Source: Methylobacterium oryzae
GTDB taxonomy: Bacteria; Pseudomonadota; Alphaproteobacteria; Rhizobiales; Beijerinckiaceae
Direction of reading: 5' to 3'
DNA: 64,000 bases
NCBI RefSeq assembly: GCF_021398735.1
Contig: NZ_CP090349.1
Span: forward strand, 750,501-814,500
Shown one piece after another: positions 52,804-64,000 of the stretch (position 1 is the first letter of the stretch; every line of letters begins with the position of its first letter). The translations under genes and the position numbers were made by a program. The notes under the pieces are model-generated. The model had not been told where the DNA came from. It searched no databases and was given only the letters and a program-made list of their open reading frames with translations.

Positions 52804-54420
52804 CTACGACCGAACGTGCTCCCACACCTTGGAGATGACGACCGATCCCTCGCCGACCGAGGCTGCGACCCGCTTGACGGAGCTGGCGCGGACGTCGCCG
52901 ACCGCGAAGATTCCCGGATGCGACGTCGCGTAAGGCGAATGCGCGCCGATCGCGTCTCCGGTCAGGACGAAGCCGTGGCCATCGAGCTCGACGAGCCCCG
53001 AGAGCCAGCCGGTATTGGGGGCGGCGCCCACCATGACGAACACGGCGCAGGTCGAGATCCTGCGCGTCGCTCCGTCGGCGCCGGTGCGGATCGTGACCGC
53101 GTCGAGATGGTCGTCGCCGTGCAGGTCGGTGACTTCGGCCCCGTACTCGATCGTGATCGCCGGGTCTGCCTCGAGCCGGCTCGACAGGTACCTCGACATG
53201 GAGGTGGCGAGCGATTGCCCGCGCACCAGGAGGCGAACGTGCCGCGCTGAGCGGCTGAGATACATCGCAGCTTGGCCCGCCGAGTTGCCGCCGCCAATAA
53301 TGATTGCCTCGGCATTCCGGCAGTAGCGCGCCTCGATCTCCGTCGCAGCGTAGTAGATGCCGGCGCCCTCGAACGCTTCGAGGCGGTCGATCGGCAACCT
53401 TCGGTACTGGACGCCGGTCGCGACGACGACGGCCTGTCCCCGAACGCGCCGGCCGTTGTCAAACGTCGCACAGAACGATCCGTCCTCGAGCCGCTCCAAC
53501 TTCGCCACCCGTCGCGGCATCGCGAAGCGAGTGCCAAACTTCATCGCCTGGATCTCGCCGCGCCAGACGAGGTCGGCGCCCGAGATCCCGGTCGGGAAGC
53601 CCATGTAGTTCTCGATCCGGCTCGATGTGCCGGCCTGACCGCCGATCGCCACATCCTCGATGACCAACGCGCGCAGCCCCTCCGCACCCGCATAGACGCC
53701 CGCTGCCACCCCGGCCGGCCCGCCGCCCACGATGAGGACGTCGAAGGCCTCGTCGTCGACGAGGTTGTAGTCGAGGCCGAGCAGCCGCGCGACCTTGGCG
53801 GGCGTCGGCTCGGTCACGACCACGTCCCGGCCGAAGATGACCGCCGGTCGGTTTGCCGAGATCGAGCAGGCCGTTGCGACGCTTGCCGCCTCCGGGCTGC
53901 CCAACGGATAGGTCCTGTAAGGAAGCCGGTTGCGACTCGCGAACTCGGCGATCCGCCGTACGCTCCGGTCGTCGTCCTCGCCGATGAGCACGAGCGTGCC
54001 GTCGTGCGAGTCGAGCTGCCGCCGCCGCCGTGCGGCGAGGACTGTGATGATGATGTCCGACATCTCCGGGATCTCGGACATCAGTCGCAGCATCTCGGGG
54101 CGCGGCACCTCGGTGACGACCGTATCTGCGCTCGCCCGCATGGGCATCGACCAAACGCCGCCGTTCAGGAACGAGATTTCGCCCATGAACTGGGTCGGAC
54201 CGAGGGTGGATGGGAGATGGCGCTCGTCCGTAAAGGGATTCACGACTTCGATCTCGCCGGCCTCGACATACACGAAGCGATCGGCTGGCTCACCGGCACG
54301 AACGAGAAAGGCGCCTGCGGAGTAGTGCTTCTCGGCCCCGATCGCCCGCAATGCGGCGACATGCGATGCAGCGAGGGGTATGCGCTGCATCTCCCGCAGG
54401 TCACGGCCGATCGTTTCCAA
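52804..54420 (-). CDS. cNMP-binding domain/thioredoxin-reductase-like fusion
   Basis: A 538-residue protein in two parts. Residues 1-140 are a Crp/CAP_ED fold (FLVRAGEPADRFVYVEAGEIEVV, FMGEISFLNGG). From about 220 it is a two-dinucleotide-binding flavoprotein: VLIVGGGPAGVAAGVYAG, GQAGTSSRIENYMGFP, IIIGGGNSAGQAA and FAVGDVRASSVKR. The redox CxxC of thioredoxin reductase (usually C-A-x-C before the second Rossmann part) is absent; the site reads GIYYAATEIEARYC. Between the two, VLIGEDDD and TEPTPAKVARLLGL form a linker domain. It is likely an NAD(P)H-dependent flavin oxidoreductase of unknown substrate, gated by a nucleotide. Confidence 0.88.
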   Translation of the reverse strand: METIGRDLREMQRIPLAASHVAALRAIGAEKHYSAGAFLVRAGEPADRFVYVEAGEIEVVNPFTDERHLPSTLGPTQFMGEISFLNGGVWSMPMRASADTVVTEVPRPEMLRLMSEIPEMSDIIITVLAARRRRQLDSHDGTLVLIGEDDDRSVRRIAEFASRNRLPYRTYPLGSPEAASVATACSISANRPAVIFGRDVVVTEPTPAKVARLLGLDYNLVDDEAFDVLIVGGGPAGVAAGVYAGAEGLRALVIEDVAIGGQAGTSSRIENYMGFPTGISGADLVWRGEIQAMKFGTRFAMPRRVAKLERLEDGSFCATFDNGRRVRGQAVVVATGVQYRRLPIDRLEAFEGAGIYYAATEIEARYCRNAEAIIIGGGNSAGQAAMYLSRSARHVRLLVRGQSLATSMSRYLSSRLEADPAITIEYGAEVTDLHGDDHLDAVTIRTGADGATRRISTCAVFVMVGAAPNTGWLSGLVELDGHGFVLTGDAIGAHSPYATSHPGIFAVGDVRASSVKRVAASVGEGSVVISKVWEHVRS

Positions 54421-54539
54421 GGGTCGCTCCCGTCGTAGGCCATCCGCTGCGGCGCAGCATCGATGGCTCGGCCGCTACAGGCAAGACCCTCGATGTTTGA
54501 TCCCGCGGTGTGGTGGTACGGTCGATCGTCATGCTGCGA

Positions 54540-54990
54540 GAGATGCCCCGCCGACAGTCCAGAAGTGGCGAACGCGGCAGACGACAGGTGATGCCGCTAT
54601 GGGGTCGAAGCAGCCCCGTTCGACGGTTCTGACCCCAGCGGAGGAGGTCATCATCGTCGCCTTCCGCCGGCACACCCTGCTGCCGCTGGACGACTGCCTC
54701 TACGGCCTACAGCCCACGATCCCGCACCTGACCCGCTCGTCGCTGCACCGCTGCCTGGAGCGGCACGGCATCAGTCGCCTACCAGAAGGAAGGCGACAAG
54801 CCCAAGAAGAAGCGCTTCGCCGATCATCCCACGGCTACATGCACATCGATATCGCCGAGGTCAGGACAGAAGAAGGCAAACTTGACCTGTTTGTGGCCAT
54901 CGACCGAACCTCGAAGCTGGCTTTCGCCAAGCTGGAAGCAGAAGCGAACCGCTACACGGCATCGGGCGTCCTGCGCGCGCTGACGAGACG
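54540..54990 (+). pseudogene. IS481-family transposase remnant
   Basis: Fragments of an IS481 transposase: TVQKWRTR, STVLTPAEEVIIVAFRRHTL, LDDCLYGLQPTIPHLTRSSL, HRCLERHGISRLP, then a frameshifted stretch (about 54785-54835) where GDKPKKKRF would be expected, then YMHIDIAEVRTEEGKL in frame again. The end is lost after VLRALTRR, so the catalytic residues past the first Asp are missing. No full inverted repeats seen. Confidence 0.8.
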
Positions 54991-55089
54991 GAGGGACATG
55001 GGTTGCCGCTGCGAAAGCGCAGCGATCCTGCTACCCTGCGCACAGCCGTCGCCGCTCGGTGGCGCACCTCAGCGCGAGGCAAGTCGATC

Positions 55090-55344
55090 ATGCATAGCGC
55101 GGCGATCAGGTGGCTCGTTGTCGCGCTTGCGGGCTTCGTGAGCACCGAAGCTGTCGCGCGGCGTTCTCGAGCGAGCAGCCCCGCCCCGCGCGGCGCGACT
55201 GCGTTCTCCCCCTTCGCTTTCCCGCGACCGCCCAATACCGCGCCGCGTCCCGCCGGCGACGGGATCATCCACTGGAACACGCCGAACAAGGACGGCAACC
55301 TCGGCGGACCCGGAACAGGGGGAGGGGGCGGCGGTGGAGGCTGA
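55090..55344 (+). CDS. Small secreted Gly-tailed protein
   Basis: An 84-residue protein with a signal peptide (IRWLVVALAGFVSTEAVA), a basic Pro/Ser-rich middle, a GDGIIHWNTPNKDGNLGG segment and a glycine-run tail. No family recognised. It begins 100 bases beyond the IS481 remnant. Start at 55090 is chosen because the signal peptide follows directly. Confidence 0.5.
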   Translation: MHSAAIRWLVVALAGFVSTEAVARRSRASSPAPRGATAFSPFAFPRPPNTAPRPAGDGIIHWNTPNKDGNLGGPGTGGGGGGGG

Positions 55345-57660: not shown

Positions 57661-58989
57661 TCACTTCTCCCGGAACGCCCGCCGGGCTTGATCGACGAGC
57701 GGCTTGGTGAGGTAGGAAAGTACCGTTCGGTCAGCCGTGCGGATGAAGGCCTCCACGGGCATGCCGGGCATCAACTTGGCCCCGTCCAGTCGCTTCATCT
57801 CCTCCTTCGTCACGCCCAGGCGAACGAGGTAGTAGAAGCTGCCGGTCCGCTTGTCCTCGCTCACATCGGCCGCGATCCGGGTCACGCGCGCGTTGAGTTC
57901 GGGTGTCGTCCGCTGGTCGAAGCTCGGGAAGCGCAACCCCGCGGCCTGACCGGTCTGCAACCGGTCGATGTCCTGCGGCGCCACACGTACCTCCGCGACG
58001 AGGGAATCCGCGGTCGGCACGATCAGCATGATCGGCTCGCCCGGGGAGATCACACCGCCGCGGGTGTGGACCGCGAGTTCGTGCACGTAGCCGGTCTGCG
58101 GCGCGCGGATCTCGATGCGCTGCAGCTGGTCGAAGGCCGTGATCCGCTGCTCGGTCAGCGTCGCCGCCTTGGCGCGGTTCTCGGCGAGCTCCTTCGCGAC
58201 GTCGCTGCGGAGATTCTGCTCGAGCTGGATGATCTGCAGCTCGGTCTCCGAGACCTTGCCCTTGGTCTGCGCGATGTTGGCGACGAGGACGCCGCGCTCG
58301 CCTTTCAGGCGGGACATGTCGCGCTGGAGGCTCGTGAGCCGGGTCAGCTGGATGAGGTTCTTCCGCCAGAGATCCTCGACGCCCTCGTACTCCCGCCCGA
58401 TGATCGCGGTCTCCTGCTCCTTCGCGGCGGCCTGCTCGGACAGGCCTTTGATCTCCTCGTTCAGCTGCCCGACCCGCTCGCGGAGCTGCGCCTTCTGGCC
58501 CTGGAGCGCGTCCTGTCGGAAGCGGAACAGCTTGCGCTCGCCGTCGACGATCCGGGCCACATCCGGTCCGGCTCCCTCGAGTTCGGGGGCGATGGCGAGG
58601 CTCGCGCGGCCGTCGCGTTCGGCCTCCAGCCGGGCATTGCGCGCCGCGATCTCCCACAGGCTCTTGGTGACGCTGTCGTAGGTGGCCTTGGCGGTGGTCG
58701 CGTCCAGGCGGACCAGCAGGTCGCCCGCCTGGACGCGCGCGCCCTCCTGAACCGACAGTTCGGCGACGACGCCGCCGGTCGGATGCTGGACCTTCTTGAT
58801 GTTGCTCTCGACCACCAGCGAGCCCGTGGCGATGATGGCGCCGGACAATTCCGTCGCCGCCGTCCAGGCCCCCGCGCCCGTGGCGACCACGATCACGGCG
58901 GCGACGCCGGCGACGTGCCGCCGCAAGGAGCGGCGCGTCTCGTATGTCGGATCCGTAGCCGGCCCGTCAGGCGTGCGATCCGTCGTCAT
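57661..58989 (-). CDS. Type I secretion HlyD/PrtE-family adaptor
   Basis: A 442-residue membrane-fusion protein of type I secretion. One membrane span near residues 25-45 (VAGVAAVIVVATGAGAWTAA), lipoyl half HPTGGVVAELSVQEGARVQAG, a long coiled coil (about 100-270), second half IEIRAPQTGYVHELAVHTRG, and a C-terminal domain ending VLSYLTKPLVDQARRAFREK, typical of PrtE/HlyD. Its ATG overlaps the exporter stop as ATGA, so the two are coupled. The outer-membrane TolC partner is not in the window. Confidence 0.93.
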   Translation of the reverse strand: MTTDRTPDGPATDPTYETRRSLRRHVAGVAAVIVVATGAGAWTAATELSGAIIATGSLVVESNIKKVQHPTGGVVAELSVQEGARVQAGDLLVRLDATTAKATYDSVTKSLWEIAARNARLEAERDGRASLAIAPELEGAGPDVARIVDGERKLFRFRQDALQGQKAQLRERVGQLNEEIKGLSEQAAAKEQETAIIGREYEGVEDLWRKNLIQLTRLTSLQRDMSRLKGERGVLVANIAQTKGKVSETELQIIQLEQNLRSDVAKELAENRAKAATLTEQRITAFDQLQRIEIRAPQTGYVHELAVHTRGGVISPGEPIMLIVPTADSLVAEVRVAPQDIDRLQTGQAAGLRFPSFDQRTTPELNARVTRIAADVSEDKRTGSFYYLVRLGVTKEEMKRLDGAKLMPGMPVEAFIRTADRTVLSYLTKPLVDQARRAFREK

Positions 58990-60710
58990 GCGACCCTCGT
59001 GGGCGTCTGCCGCGTCAGGGCGTTCAGCTTCGACAGAACTTCGTCGCGCGGGCCGTGCAGCTGCACGCGCCCGTCCCCGAGGACCAGGATGCGATCGACC
59101 GCCGCCAGCGCGCTCGGCCGGTGCGCGATCACCACGACGATGCCGCCGCGGGCGCGCACGCCCTGCACGGCGGCGGACAGGGCGCGATCGCCGTCGACGT
59201 CGAGATTCGAGTTCGGCTCGTCGAGGACCACGAGGAACGGATCGCCGTACAGCGCCCGCGCGAGCGCGATCCGCTGCCGCTGACCCCCGGAGAGGCCCAG
59301 GCCGCCGGTACCGACGCGGGCGTCGTAGCCGCCCGGCAGCCGGAGCACGACCTCGTGCACGCCGGCGGCCCGGGCAGCCGCCAGCAGGGCCTCGGGGTTG
59401 GGCTCGGGATCGAAGCGCGTGATGTTCTCGGTGATCGTGCCGTCGAACATCTCGATGTCCTGCGGCAGGTAGCCGACCGCGCGCCCGAGGGCATCGGGAT
59501 CCCACTGATCGATCGCCGCGCCGTCGAGGCGGATCACGCCGCGGTTCGGGCGCGCCAGCCCGACGAGGGCACGGGCGAAGGTGGATTTGCCGGAGCCGCT
59601 GGCTCCGATCACCCCGAGGGCGCTTCCGGGCGCGAGGGCGACGTTGACGTCGTGGAGCACCAGGGTGTCGGTCCCGGGCGCCGCGATCGACAGGGCCGTC
59701 ACGCGCACGCTCTCCCGCGGCGCCGGGAGCGGCGTGAGGGCGGCGGGCTCCCGCCGGGGCAGGAACGCGACGAGGCGGCCCCAGGCCTGCCGGGCGCCCG
59801 AGAACGACTTCCAGTTGGCGATCGCCAGGTCGACCGGCGCGAGGGCGCGCGCGGACAGGATCGTGGCGGCCAGCATAACGCCGGCCGTCGCCTCCTCGCG
59901 GACCACGAGGAAGGCGCCCAGGCCGAGGATGCCGGATTGCAGCACCGTGCGCAGCAGGCGCGCCGTCGTGCCGAAGCCGATGGCCAGGTCGTTCCCGTAC
60001 GCCGCGACGTCGAGGTTCCGCCGGGCCCGGATCTGCCAGAGCTCCGCGATGCGGGACCGCATCCCGAGCGCCGAGAGCAGCGGTGCCGTCCGGTGCGCCA
60101 TGTCGGTGAAGGACCGGCGCTCACCGGCCGTTCGGACGGCCTCCTGGGTGGACGCGGACGAGGCCCAGTCCGTGAGGATCGTCAGCACGCACAGGAACAG
60201 GGCGCCCCCGGCCACCGCCGCGCCGAGCCAGGGATGGAACAGGAAGCAGACCGCGACGTAGAGCGGCACCCAGGGCAGGTCGAAGAAGGCGCTGACCGCC
60301 ATGCTCGACACGAAGCCGCGGACGGTGTCGAGATCGCGCAGGGCCTGGGGCCCGTCATCGCTGCGCGGCATCTCGGCGCCGCGGACCAGCAGGGTCCGGA
60401 AGATCCGCGGACCGAGGCGCTCGTCGACGAGGCGCGCGAAGCGCGCCAGGATCCGGGCACGGAAGATCTCGAAGACGCTCTGGATCACGAGCAGCATCAG
60501 CGTGATGCCGGCGAGACCGACGAGCGTCGCGATGCTCCGGCTCGGCAGCACCCGGTCGTAGACCTGCAGCATGAAGATCGGGGCCGTGAGCATCAGCAGA
60601 TTGATCAGACCGCTGACGATCATCACGGTGATCAGGCACGTGCGCCCGGCCCTGACGGCGGACCAGAACTCGCGCCGCTTCGCGACACGCAACACGCGTT
60701 CATCGGTCAC
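58986..60710 (-). CDS. Type I secretion ABC exporter (PrtD/LapB-type)
   Basis: A 574-residue ABC half-transporter. Six membrane spans fill about residues 20-300 (LINLLMLTAPIFMLQVYDRV is the typical first one). The ATPase domain has Walker A GASGSGKST (near 368), Q-loop GYLPQDIEMF, signature LSGGQRQRIALA, Walker B FLVVLDEPNSNLD and the switch His in VIAHRPSA. No peptidase C39 or CLD domain precedes it, as in PrtD exporters of proteases, lipases and glycanases. Starts at a GTG at 60710, 105 bases after the repeat-protein gene, so the three form one transcript. Confidence 0.93.
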   Translation of the reverse strand: MTDERVLRVAKRREFWSAVRAGRTCLITVMIVSGLINLLMLTAPIFMLQVYDRVLPSRSIATLVGLAGITLMLLVIQSVFEIFRARILARFARLVDERLGPRIFRTLLVRGAEMPRSDDGPQALRDLDTVRGFVSSMAVSAFFDLPWVPLYVAVCFLFHPWLGAAVAGGALFLCVLTILTDWASSASTQEAVRTAGERRSFTDMAHRTAPLLSALGMRSRIAELWQIRARRNLDVAAYGNDLAIGFGTTARLLRTVLQSGILGLGAFLVVREEATAGVMLAATILSARALAPVDLAIANWKSFSGARQAWGRLVAFLPRREPAALTPLPAPRESVRVTALSIAAPGTDTLVLHDVNVALAPGSALGVIGASGSGKSTFARALVGLARPNRGVIRLDGAAIDQWDPDALGRAVGYLPQDIEMFDGTITENITRFDPEPNPEALLAAARAAGVHEVVLRLPGGYDARVGTGGLGLSGGQRQRIALARALYGDPFLVVLDEPNSNLDVDGDRALSAAVQGVRARGGIVVVIAHRPSALAAVDRILVLGDGRVQLHGPRDEVLSKLNALTRQTPTRVA

Positions 60711-60815: not shown

Positions 60816-63359
60816 TCACAGGCCGAGCAGGTGCAGGCCGCTCGTGGCCGTGTGGGGAGTCGGGTCCGTGTGCTGGACTTCGGTGTGGCCGCCGAGATCG
60901 ATCGTGGCGACGCCGAGATCGACGCTCACGCCCTGGGAGGCGCCCGCCTCGGCCGGCGCGGCGGAGGTCCCCGACACCGCGTCCACGAGGTGGCCGACGA
61001 GGGAGTCGGCACCGCCGCCCGTCTGCGGCAGGTGGATGCTGTCGCCGCTGAGCAGGTTCGCCGTGGCAAGACTCGGCTGATCGGCGCTCACCGCGACCGC
61101 GCTCACGTCGACGGTGTGGGCCGGATCGGCGGCGGGCGTGAGCACGGCGACGTCCGCCACCGGCGTCGAGGTCGTCGGGCCCGCCGACACGTCGATCAAC
61201 GGGTGGGTCTCGGCTCCCGGCTCGCCCGACGTGCCGCCGGTGAGCGTGCCGAGCAGGTTTCCGACGGCGCTCCCTGCCCCACCGGTCTCGCCCCCGCCCA
61301 GGACCGTGGTCACGGTCCCGACGACGCCGTCGACCGGGGAGCCCGCCTGGTGGCCGTCCCCGCCGGCCGCGGGAAGGATCCCCGCCACCGAGCCCACGAC
61401 GCCGCCGGCCGCCTCCGTCACGGACCCGAGATCGCTCGCGACCTGCGTCACCGCGGGGCCTCCGTCGCCGTTCAGGACCGCGCCCGGCAGATTGACGACA
61501 TCGGTCACGAGGTTGCTCGACCCGCCGAGCTCCCCCAGGCCGACCGTGGTTCCGAGGTTGATCACGGCGTGGAGCGGGTCGTTCAGGACCGGCACATCGT
61601 GGCCGACCTGTTCCAGGGCCGCATGGACGCCGTCGATCAGCGTATTGGCGACGTCTCCGACCGGCTGCAGCGGCGCGTTCGTCCCGAGCAGCGCGCCGGC
61701 CGCGCCGGAACCCGGGCCTCCGTTCAGGCCGCCCAGGAGACCGTCGAGGGCTCCGGCACCCTGGTCCCCCGTCAAGCCGCCGAGGGCGGAGGTGACCGGT
61801 GCCAGGAGACCGCCGCCCGGCAGGCCGGATCCGAGACCGCCGCCGGCCGAGTCGAGGAGGCCGGTCGCGGAGCCGACGACGCCGCCCAGCGCGCCCGCCA
61901 CGTGCCCGAGGTCGTCGACGACCTGCGCCACGCCTCCGGGCGCGTTCCCGGTCAGGATCGCGCCGGGCAGGTTGATGGTGTCGGTGAGCAGGTTGTGGCT
62001 GTCGCCGAGTTCCCTCAGTCCGACCGTGTTGCCCAGCGCGATCACCGCGTGGAGCGGGTCGTTGAGGAGCGGCACGTCGTGTCCGACCTGCTCCAGCGCC
62101 CCGTGGACGGTGTCGATCAGCGTGTTGGCGACAGCGCCCACCGGCTGCAGCGGCGCGTTCGGCCCGAGCAGGGTGCCGGTTCCGTCCGGAGCGCCGCCGG
62201 TCACGGTGCCGAGCAGGCCATCCACCGCGGCGGTGACGCCGCCGAGCAGTCCGCCGGCCGCACCGGCCACCGCGCCGACATCGCCGAGGATCGGGGACAA
62301 TGCGCCGAGCCCCTGGCCGCCCAGCAGGGCACCGGGCAGGGCCGCGGCGTCGGTCAGCAGGTTTCCGCCCTCGCCCAGATGGCCGAGTCCGAGGGTCTCG
62401 CCGAGATTGGTCAGGCCGTGGACAGCGCCGTTCAGCAGCGGGACCTCGTGCCCGAGATTCTCGAGGGTCATGTGGACGTCGAGGACGGCGGTGTTCGCGA
62501 GGTTCGCGACCGGGGCGAGAAGGCCGCCCGACGCGAGCAGCCCGCCGGCCGTCGCGGCCCCGGTGACGGAGGTGATCAGCGTGTCGGTCGCTCCGAGGAT
62601 GGAACCGAGATCCGCGAGGACCGGCGTGGCCGAGCCGAGGCCGCCGCCAGTGAGGAGCGATCCCGGCACGGCGAGCGTGTCGGTCAGGAGATTGCCCGCC
62701 TCGCCGATGCGACCGAGGCCGACCGTCTCGCCGAGGCCCGTGAGGGCGTGGATCGGCGCGTTGAGCACCGGGACCTGATGGCCGACATCCTCCAGCGTCG
62801 TGTGCAGGTCGAGGACGGCTTGGTTGAGAATCCCCACCGCCGGCGCGAGCGTGCCGCCGGAGCCGACAAGGCCGTTGCCGGCCACGGGCAATGCTGTGAC
62901 GGTATTCAGCAAGGTTCCGGCAGCCTCGGCGACCTGCCCGGCATCGTTCAACACCGGGACGACGCTGCCGGCATCGGTCGGGTTGGCGACGGCGCCGGTC
63001 AGGTCCGTGATCAGGTTGCCGGCCTCGCCGATATGACCGAGCCCGACCGTCTCGCCGAGATTGGTCAGACCGTGGAGCGGGCCGTTCAGCGCCGCGACCT
63101 GATGACCCGCGTTCTCGAGCTGCGCATGGGTGTCGAGGACGATCTGGTTCGCGGTATCGGCCAGCGCGCCGGGAAGCAGTGATCCGCCCTCGTCCGCCGC
63201 ACCGACGTCGACGGCACTCTCGATGAGCGAGGTAATCGGACCGAGACTCGTCAATTGGCCGGTCGACAGTGCGGTGGAAGACAGTAGCGCGCTGGACCCG
63301 ACCAGCCACTCAAGCGAGCGTGACGACGGGTTGAGCGCGGCGAGAGGGGACGACGACAT
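60816..63359 (-). CDS. 847-residue repeat protein, putative type I substrate
   Basis: A secreted-type protein of no family I recognise, rich in Gly, Ala, Val, Leu, Asn and Asp and nearly free of Cys. Five repeats are seen, each with an H-x2-LE-x2-GH-x-VP-x-LN-x-P-x-H core, then LGETVGLG and a NLLTD segment ending in LPGA. Their LGETVGLG centres lie near residues 103, 212, 322, 448 and 606; spacer length grows from about 110 to 158. The tail holds TVDVSAVAVS and ends SGLHLLGL. There is no N-terminal signal peptide, as expected for type I secretion, and no RTX nonapeptides. GGAGG lies five bases before the ATG at 63359. The next genes encode the exporter and adaptor. Confidence 0.8.
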   Translation of the reverse strand: MSSSPLAALNPSSRSLEWLVGSSALLSSTALSTGQLTSLGPITSLIESAVDVGAADEGGSLLPGALADTANQIVLDTHAQLENAGHQVAALNGPLHGLTNLGETVGLGHIGEAGNLITDLTGAVANPTDAGSVVPVLNDAGQVAEAAGTLLNTVTALPVAGNGLVGSGGTLAPAVGILNQAVLDLHTTLEDVGHQVPVLNAPIHALTGLGETVGLGRIGEAGNLLTDTLAVPGSLLTGGGLGSATPVLADLGSILGATDTLITSVTGAATAGGLLASGGLLAPVANLANTAVLDVHMTLENLGHEVPLLNGAVHGLTNLGETLGLGHLGEGGNLLTDAAALPGALLGGQGLGALSPILGDVGAVAGAAGGLLGGVTAAVDGLLGTVTGGAPDGTGTLLGPNAPLQPVGAVANTLIDTVHGALEQVGHDVPLLNDPLHAVIALGNTVGLRELGDSHNLLTDTINLPGAILTGNAPGGVAQVVDDLGHVAGALGGVVGSATGLLDSAGGGLGSGLPGGGLLAPVTSALGGLTGDQGAGALDGLLGGLNGGPGSGAAGALLGTNAPLQPVGDVANTLIDGVHAALEQVGHDVPVLNDPLHAVINLGTTVGLGELGGSSNLVTDVVNLPGAVLNGDGGPAVTQVASDLGSVTEAAGGVVGSVAGILPAAGGDGHQAGSPVDGVVGTVTTVLGGGETGGAGSAVGNLLGTLTGGTSGEPGAETHPLIDVSAGPTTSTPVADVAVLTPAADPAHTVDVSAVAVSADQPSLATANLLSGDSIHLPQTGGGADSLVGHLVDAVSGTSAAPAEAGASQGVSVDLGVATIDLGGHTEVQHTDPTPHTATSGLHLLGL

Positions 63360-63841
63360 GGGCACCTCCGGTTTTGATGCGTAACCGGCAGTACAATTAT
63401 GGGTTGCGGACCCGAGCGTCGGTAAAGAATACCGAGCCTGCGGCCTGCCGTTGCTGCGTGCGGCCGGTCACGACACCGCCGAGGGAGGAGGTCCAACCGC
63501 GTCGCGCTTCGGTCGCGGACAGCAATATGCGTCGCAGAAATGACGTGCTCGACTATCATTTGTATTAGTATTTTGTATATAAAATCAGCCAGAATGGCAA
63601 TGCTCGTTGTAATCCTAAAATCTCGGAGGATTACGGGATATACTTTCAAATATTCGCTGTCGATCGGCTCCTCCGTATCGATCTGCTCGGATCGACGGCG
63701 GCATCCCGCGCGTCGTGCCATCGACCAGACCGTGCCCGGCAATCATCGTCGGAACCCAGGCGCCCTGTTTTCCGATGCAGCTTATGATTGTATCGTGCGG
63801 CGCGGCCACTTCAGTGCGTGGCACGAATGGGCAGGTGATCC
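63360..63841. promoter_or_regulatory. AT-rich divergent promoter region
   Basis: A 482-base gap between the repeat protein (minus) and the glycanase-like start (plus). The 63540-63660 part is the most AT-rich in the window (TTTGTATTAGTATTTTGTAT, then ATAAAATCAG) and has a stem GTAATCCT / AGGATTAC at 63609-63634. It looks like a regulated promoter and a target for H-NS/MucR-type proteins. Confidence 0.5.
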
Positions 63842-64000
63842 GTGGCCATTGATCCGAGGAATCTCGCCCAGACGGCGACACTCACCTACAGCCAGGACTT
63901 CAACACGCTGCCGCTCTGGGACGGCACTTCGGGTCTCGACACGTCCGGCGGCCCGCAGTGGAGCATCCACGTCACGTCGACCGGGACGCGGCCCTTCAAT
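63842..64000 (+). CDS. Start of a type I-secreted glycanase-like protein (partial)
   Basis: The first 53 codons of a gene cut by the window end. GTG start after AGGTGATCC. The protein begins AIDPRNLAQTATLTYSQDFN then LPLWDGTSGLDTS, which resembles the N-terminus of GH16/ExsH-like endoglycanases and other calcium-binding proteins exported by PrtD-type systems without a signal peptide. The rest, including any catalytic or RTX part, is outside the window, so family is tentative. Confidence 0.55.
   Translation, partial: MAIDPRNLAQTATLTYSQDFNTLPLWDGTSGLDTSGGPQWSIHVTSTGTRPFN

Follow-up and report, generated by a model that had tools for sequence, protein, structure and literature searches.

We found that a 64,000-nucleotide stretch of the Methylobacterium oryzae genome (the window) encodes an 847-residue protein with five repeats and an extreme amino acid composition, that an exporter pair lies behind its gene and a glycanase gene adjoins it, and that comparison across genomes reveals joint inheritance. 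Considering these observations together, we lean towards a role for the repeat protein as an acidic, multi-bead scaffold of the matrix.

The repeat-protein coding sequence occupies 60816..63359 on the reverse strand, from an ATG at 63359 to a stop at 60816; full-length homologues support this extent, and a putative ribosome-binding site, GGAGGT (63364..63369, reverse strand), lies 4 bases 5′ of the ATG. The encoded protein contains no Cys, no Lys and three Arg, together with 28 His and 71 acidic residues, giving a pI of 4.06 from the sequence composition. An earlier sequence-only reading of the window had spoken of almost no Cys, which was right about the low content, although the count is in fact zero. 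The same bias was found in the homologues: in the first 74 members of the homologue set, Lys was absent from 61 and occurred at most once in all 74, Cys was absent from all 74, and the maxima across the whole set (n = 88, including the window protein) were 3 Lys and 1 Cys. A motif scan found no GGxGxD motif in the repeat protein, which upholds the reported absence of RTX repeats. No Pfam or NCBIfam family matched at E values up to 1, in agreement with the earlier view of the protein as undescribed; toxin, adhesin, anchor and haemophore families (both databases) and cadherin-like and carbohydrate-binding families (Pfam) were among those without a match. A literature search by titles and abstract openings found no description of the protein.

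Five cores of the form H-x2-LE-x2-GH-x-V-x2-LN were located at residues 78, 186, 296, 419 and 579, with core-to-core spacings of 108, 110, 123 and 160. Self-similarity among the repeats is far above chance: the best 55-residue self-match contained 47 identities, whereas 30 shuffles gave no more than 20, and one core was present in none of 2000 shuffles of the protein. These results bear out the five repeats built on an H-x2-LE-x2-GH core that had been read from the sequence, and they amend three finer points of that description. The VPxLN part of the core is found in four of the five cores, whereas repeat 1 has VAALN; LGETVGLG, which had been named as part of the degenerate repeats, is exact only in repeats 1 and 2 and varies in repeats 3–5; and the proposed growth in spacer length fits the last two spacings only, because modules 1–3 abut and Gly-rich linkers set modules 4 and 5 apart. 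A repeat profile built from the five cores, whose numbering runs two residues higher, detected five repeats in the window protein and between 1 and 6 per protein across the 88-protein set. Among the close relatives in the genomes, the longest (locus L043 of genome G105) gave 7 module hits, and its array could be a recent expansion.

Combining the profile with AlphaFold2 models, we placed helical modules 1–5 at residues 56–148 (62916..63194), 164–259 (62583..62870), 274–369 (62253..62540), 397–492 (61884..62171) and 557–652 (61404..61691), all on the reverse strand. The earlier reading had proposed structure prediction as a check, and a single repeat (module 5, modelled alone as 61362-61691) was confidently predicted as a four-helix module (pLDDT 95.1, pTM 0.84), which leads us to predict that the repeats are four-helix modules. 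The predicted module had no clear match to a known family in a fold comparison that took in helical bundles of solved structure (talin, catenin, FAT and others). Modules 4 and 5 are joined by a Gly-rich linker (residues 493–556; 61692..61883, reverse strand) with pLDDT below 50 at residues 506–553. The C-terminal region (residues 667–847; 60819..61361, reverse strand) gave a low-confidence model and is partly conserved among homologues.

Across 97 module copies, H23 was conserved in 93, E27 in 93, H31 in 89, H41 in 95, D64 in 95 and D87 in 96, and several of these His, Glu and Asp residues sit within predicted helices. We regard metal sites in the modules as a tentative idea. The same conservation would also suit a secreted scavenger, whose modules bind metal or haem through these residues with no involvement of a matrix; HasA-type haemophores leave the cell through broadly similar exporters. 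Such a scavenger is unlikely, however, in view of the absence of any Pfam haemophore match in the repeat protein and of the nature of its surroundings: apart from the exporter, the neighbour that recurs is a glycanase rather than a receptor or metal-uptake gene, and iron-transporter genes adjoin the locus on M. radiotolerans plasmid pMRAD01 but did not appear at the further loci checked by eye.

Against 5.8 billion proteins, a search that scored the 7994 candidates with the most shared words returned at least 87 homologues. Among the candidates scored, the homologues with named organisms came from Methylobacterium or Methylorubrum, plus one Beijerinckia (sp. L45), and the closest, 96% identical, came from Methylobacterium sp. 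D48H. Searching with distant members added eight proteins without informative names (P0089-P0096). In a sample of the genus, the repeat protein was found in 28 of 111 genomes, a count that, like our other genome counts, covers related species and is not made up of independent cases. In a family sample of 199 genomes there were 10 matches, of which six fell in the same genus and the remaining four were spread over three others. The profile search with one repeat, suggested by the sequence-only reading, was run on genomes of the order and class; it scores limited candidates per genome, so that misses are possible, and it hit 6 of 347 order genomes, of which five belonged to the same genus and one to another family at a borderline E value of 9.9e-4, and 1 of 385 class genomes, namely the window's own. 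The borderline match had no exporter of this type within 19 kb. The copy in one relative (G066) may be decayed, because the second half of the match has two stops. In the window's genome the gene lies on a 5.98-Mb contig, and three plasmid records also hold the repeat protein (two from M. radiotolerans and one from Methylobacterium sp. NMS14P). This patchy spread, with plasmids included, and the possession of an exporter would also suit an extracellular toxin or antagonistic effector with its own type I system, yet no toxin family was matched and no immunity-type gene was kept adjacent among the clustered neighbours, so that we consider this very improbable.

Public records name four homologues (P0022, P0035, P0048 and P0050) as PE-PGRS or collagen middle region. 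The Pfam scan did not support these names: the proteins share with those families a richness in Gly, but no such Pfam family was found in the window protein or in 10 homologues scanned, which included P0022, P0035 and P0050.

The gene for a PrtD-type type I ABC exporter (58986..60710, reverse strand; TIGR01842, 651.8 bits against a cut-off of 510.15) starts with a GTG at 60710, about 105 bases beyond the repeat-protein stop. It is followed by an HlyD-type adaptor gene (57661..58989, reverse strand; TIGR01843, 372.2 bits against 208.65), whose ATG at 58989 overlaps the ABC stop, and the earlier placement of exporter and adaptor directly behind the repeat protein was thus correct. The published M. 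oryzae genome paper, in the passages that bear on secretion, treats type I secretion and hemolysin-type adhesins in no more than general terms (PMC4161386). We propose no attenuator between the protein and ABC genes, as a 111-base stretch there folded no better than shuffles (z −0.5). Beyond the adaptor, a gene-poor stretch at about 54.4–57.6 kb holds a frame (54380-55141) that by eye resembles a broken integrase-type transposase core. The window's genome encodes one TolC-type protein over the cut-off. Another of its PrtD-type exporters likewise exceeds the cut-off (691.4 bits; G000:C2:325398-327023; L078, L102).

The order of repeat protein, ABC exporter and adaptor on one strand was kept at all 28 loci of the genus, with a protein–ABC gap of 59–329 bases as measured from tblastn ends. 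We read gene order from tblastn matches and, at one locus, from RefSeq annotation, because our first ORF caller favoured antisense frames at several loci. Exporters at least 66% identical to that of the window were found in 31 of the 111 genomes, the next best being 56%. We built a tree of 45 exporters: the 28 linked to the repeat protein, 4 from other genera, 3 from genomes lacking the repeat protein and 10 other exporters. One branch (98/94; 96% of 200 bootstrap trees) parted the 28, 4 and 3 from the 10 others, three of which stand behind RTX proteins with 9–10 GGxGxD motifs. These RTX proteins of the same genus (L136-L138) resemble the repeat protein in being acidic and in having their genes immediately ahead of those for an ABC exporter and HlyD adaptor, but the window protein has none of their GGxGxD motifs and their exporters fall in another tree group. 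Identity to the exporter of the window is 51–55% for the exporters from other genera and 54% for the RTX-linked ones of its own genus; because the former are no closer than the latter, the grouping does not reflect species kinship only. Other PrtD-type exporters of the genus (L140, L141 and L143) stand directly behind genes that by eye resemble photosynthetic reaction-centre subunits, which is an unusual setting.

At the loci of other genera the repeat protein was linked to an exporter in four of four cases; at one of them the protein, with a single module in 317 residues, is encoded convergently to exporter and adaptor, and at another it is in two frames and no adaptor was matched. This co-inheritance strongly backs export of the repeat protein by the adjacent exporter, which we consider very likely. 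Hydropathy analysis of residues 1–60 found no strongly hydrophobic stretch (best 19-residue Kyte–Doolittle mean, 1.01), and the lack of a visible signal peptide by this measure would also be expected of an acidic repeat protein that is not exported and stands beside an exporter by chance. Linkage at every locus of the genus and of the other genera, to exporters of one group, leaves such an intracellular protein with hardly any probability.

We also identified a neighbour that the earlier reading had overlooked. A divergent gene for a GH16 glycanase starts at 63842 on the forward strand (63842..64000 in the window) and ends outside it (L031:12343-13623 for the whole gene, 426 aa). A GH16 domain (PF00722, 98.4 bits against a cut-off of 22) is followed by DUF5648 (PF18885, 107.3 bits), and the E-x-D-x-x-E motif, which we take to be the GH16 catalytic motif, was present in all 11 orthologues. 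These orthologues have no Cys, and by eye their N-termini are not hydrophobic. At E 1e-60 or better, GH16 was matched in 17 of the 111 genomes; in 11 the enzyme is at least 76% identical and in each of these, three of which lack the repeat protein, it adjoins this exporter, whereas the matches in the other six are only 43–54% identical and located elsewhere. Where the repeat protein is present, the gene lies upstream in divergent orientation at 3 loci and follows downstream of the adaptor at 5 more; none was seen in 20 of the 31 exporter loci. RefSeq annotates, in this order, a family 16 glycosylhydrolase, a hypothetical protein, a type I permease/ATPase and an HlyD adaptor on M. radiotolerans pMRAD01. 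In M. radiotolerans JCM 2831, the repeat protein is WP_012330001 and the GH16 protein WP_012330002. The gap between the divergent genes holds one sigma-70-like site, on the strand of GH16, against 0.4 expected, and this site was not used.

Three genomes (G091, G041 and G083; loci L133, L134 and L135) have exporters 88–89% identical to that of the window and keep the adaptor and GH16, with no repeat-protein match. In the repeat protein's place, directly before the ABC gene, they have an acyltransferase-like gene (by eye), which in two relatives precedes the repeat protein. Their exporters, one of which has an in-frame stop, group together in the tree (94/93), and the absence of the repeat protein therefore probably reflects one loss. 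Because GH16 is tied to the exporter and stays in these three genomes, the exporter probably does not serve the repeat protein alone. The idea that the repeat protein has its own type I exporter thus holds for co-inheritance, but the repeat protein is probably not the sole cargo, and we judge GH16 a likely second one. The tie between glycanase and exporter also speaks against a surface adhesin or spreading coat that remains on the cell and binds plant or cell surfaces directly, with the glycanase a mere co-passenger of the exporter. A variable number of repeats on Gly-rich linkers, as is often seen in adhesins, and the occurrence of the locus in species named from plants would agree with such an adhesin; given that no anchor or known adhesin domain was found with Pfam and NCBIfam, we think it improbable. 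We prefer the matrix role to that of a plain adhesin because the glycanase adjoins.

The two putative cargoes have similar C-termini. The repeat protein ends in LHLLGL (60819..60836, reverse strand), a candidate export signal, and LLGL is the ending in 73 of the 88 set members; the GH16 orthologues end in MFG(L/M) in 11 of 11. Across 20 neighbourhoods, an ending of a hydrophobic residue, G and L or M was found in 10 of 10 called repeat proteins, 7 of 7 GH16 proteins and 0 of 201 other ORF calls, where the 201 include spurious antisense frames and the 10 are those called of 20 repeat proteins. Distant family members of other genera lack the LLGL ending wherever the end is seen. The common tail is a hint, not proof, of a shared export tag.

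On this basis we propose a mechanism for the matrix scaffold. We infer that the exporter would take the repeat-protein chain by its C-terminal tail, akin to the GH16 end, that exporter and adaptor would pass it outside together with a TolC-type channel from elsewhere in the genome, and that the acidic chain would come to lie in the exopolysaccharide coat, contacting polysaccharide. The modules would fold outside the cell as beads on flexible linkers, and the GH16 glycanase, which likely shares this exporter, would trim the polymer. A more detailed and speculative version would have metal-holding four-helix beads, each with a conserved His-Glu-His-Asp-Asp set distributed across its helices, on Gly-rich linkers, without Lys or Cys, and a co-evolved pump that exports scaffold and glycanase through a hydrophobic-Gly-Leu/Met tail; the number of beads (1–6) would set the reach of the chain, and metal would tighten or cross-link the coat.

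The logic would be that of the Rhizobium PrsDE system, in which one exporter serves Ply glycanases and Rap matrix proteins. In R. leguminosarum, the cargoes of PrsDE include Ply glycanases as well as Rap proteins, which bind and shape the polysaccharide (PMC9298526, PMC5061743, PMC2275737), and plyA stands before prsDE (PMC2275737). The two systems are alike in that a glycanase gene adjoins an exporter and adaptor, and a non-enzymatic protein and a glycanase probably share one exporter. Rap proteins, however, have beta-type, cadherin-like domains, with calcium and polysaccharide binding established by experiment (PMC9298526, PMC5061743), whereas the window modules are predicted to be all-helical and have no cadherin-like match (Pfam, E up to 1). 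The repeat protein is thus not a Rap protein, although it may work like one. ExsH-type GH16 glycanases of Sinorhizobium are exported by type I systems as well, presumably without a signal peptide. The GH16 of the window would be like ExsH in this respect and differs in its DUF5648 domain and MFG(L/M) end, ExsH having RTX repeats.

Bacteria of the genus Methylobacterium are very common on leaves, and a literature search by titles and abstract openings found no matrix scaffold protein described for it. Exporter, scaffold and glycanase form a compact set that brings the question within reach of three gene deletions, and the natural loci that have pump and glycanase without the scaffold offer a comparison. 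The repeat-protein family bears misleading names in public records. Should the module prove to bind metal, it would represent a new building block for scaffolds outside the cell.
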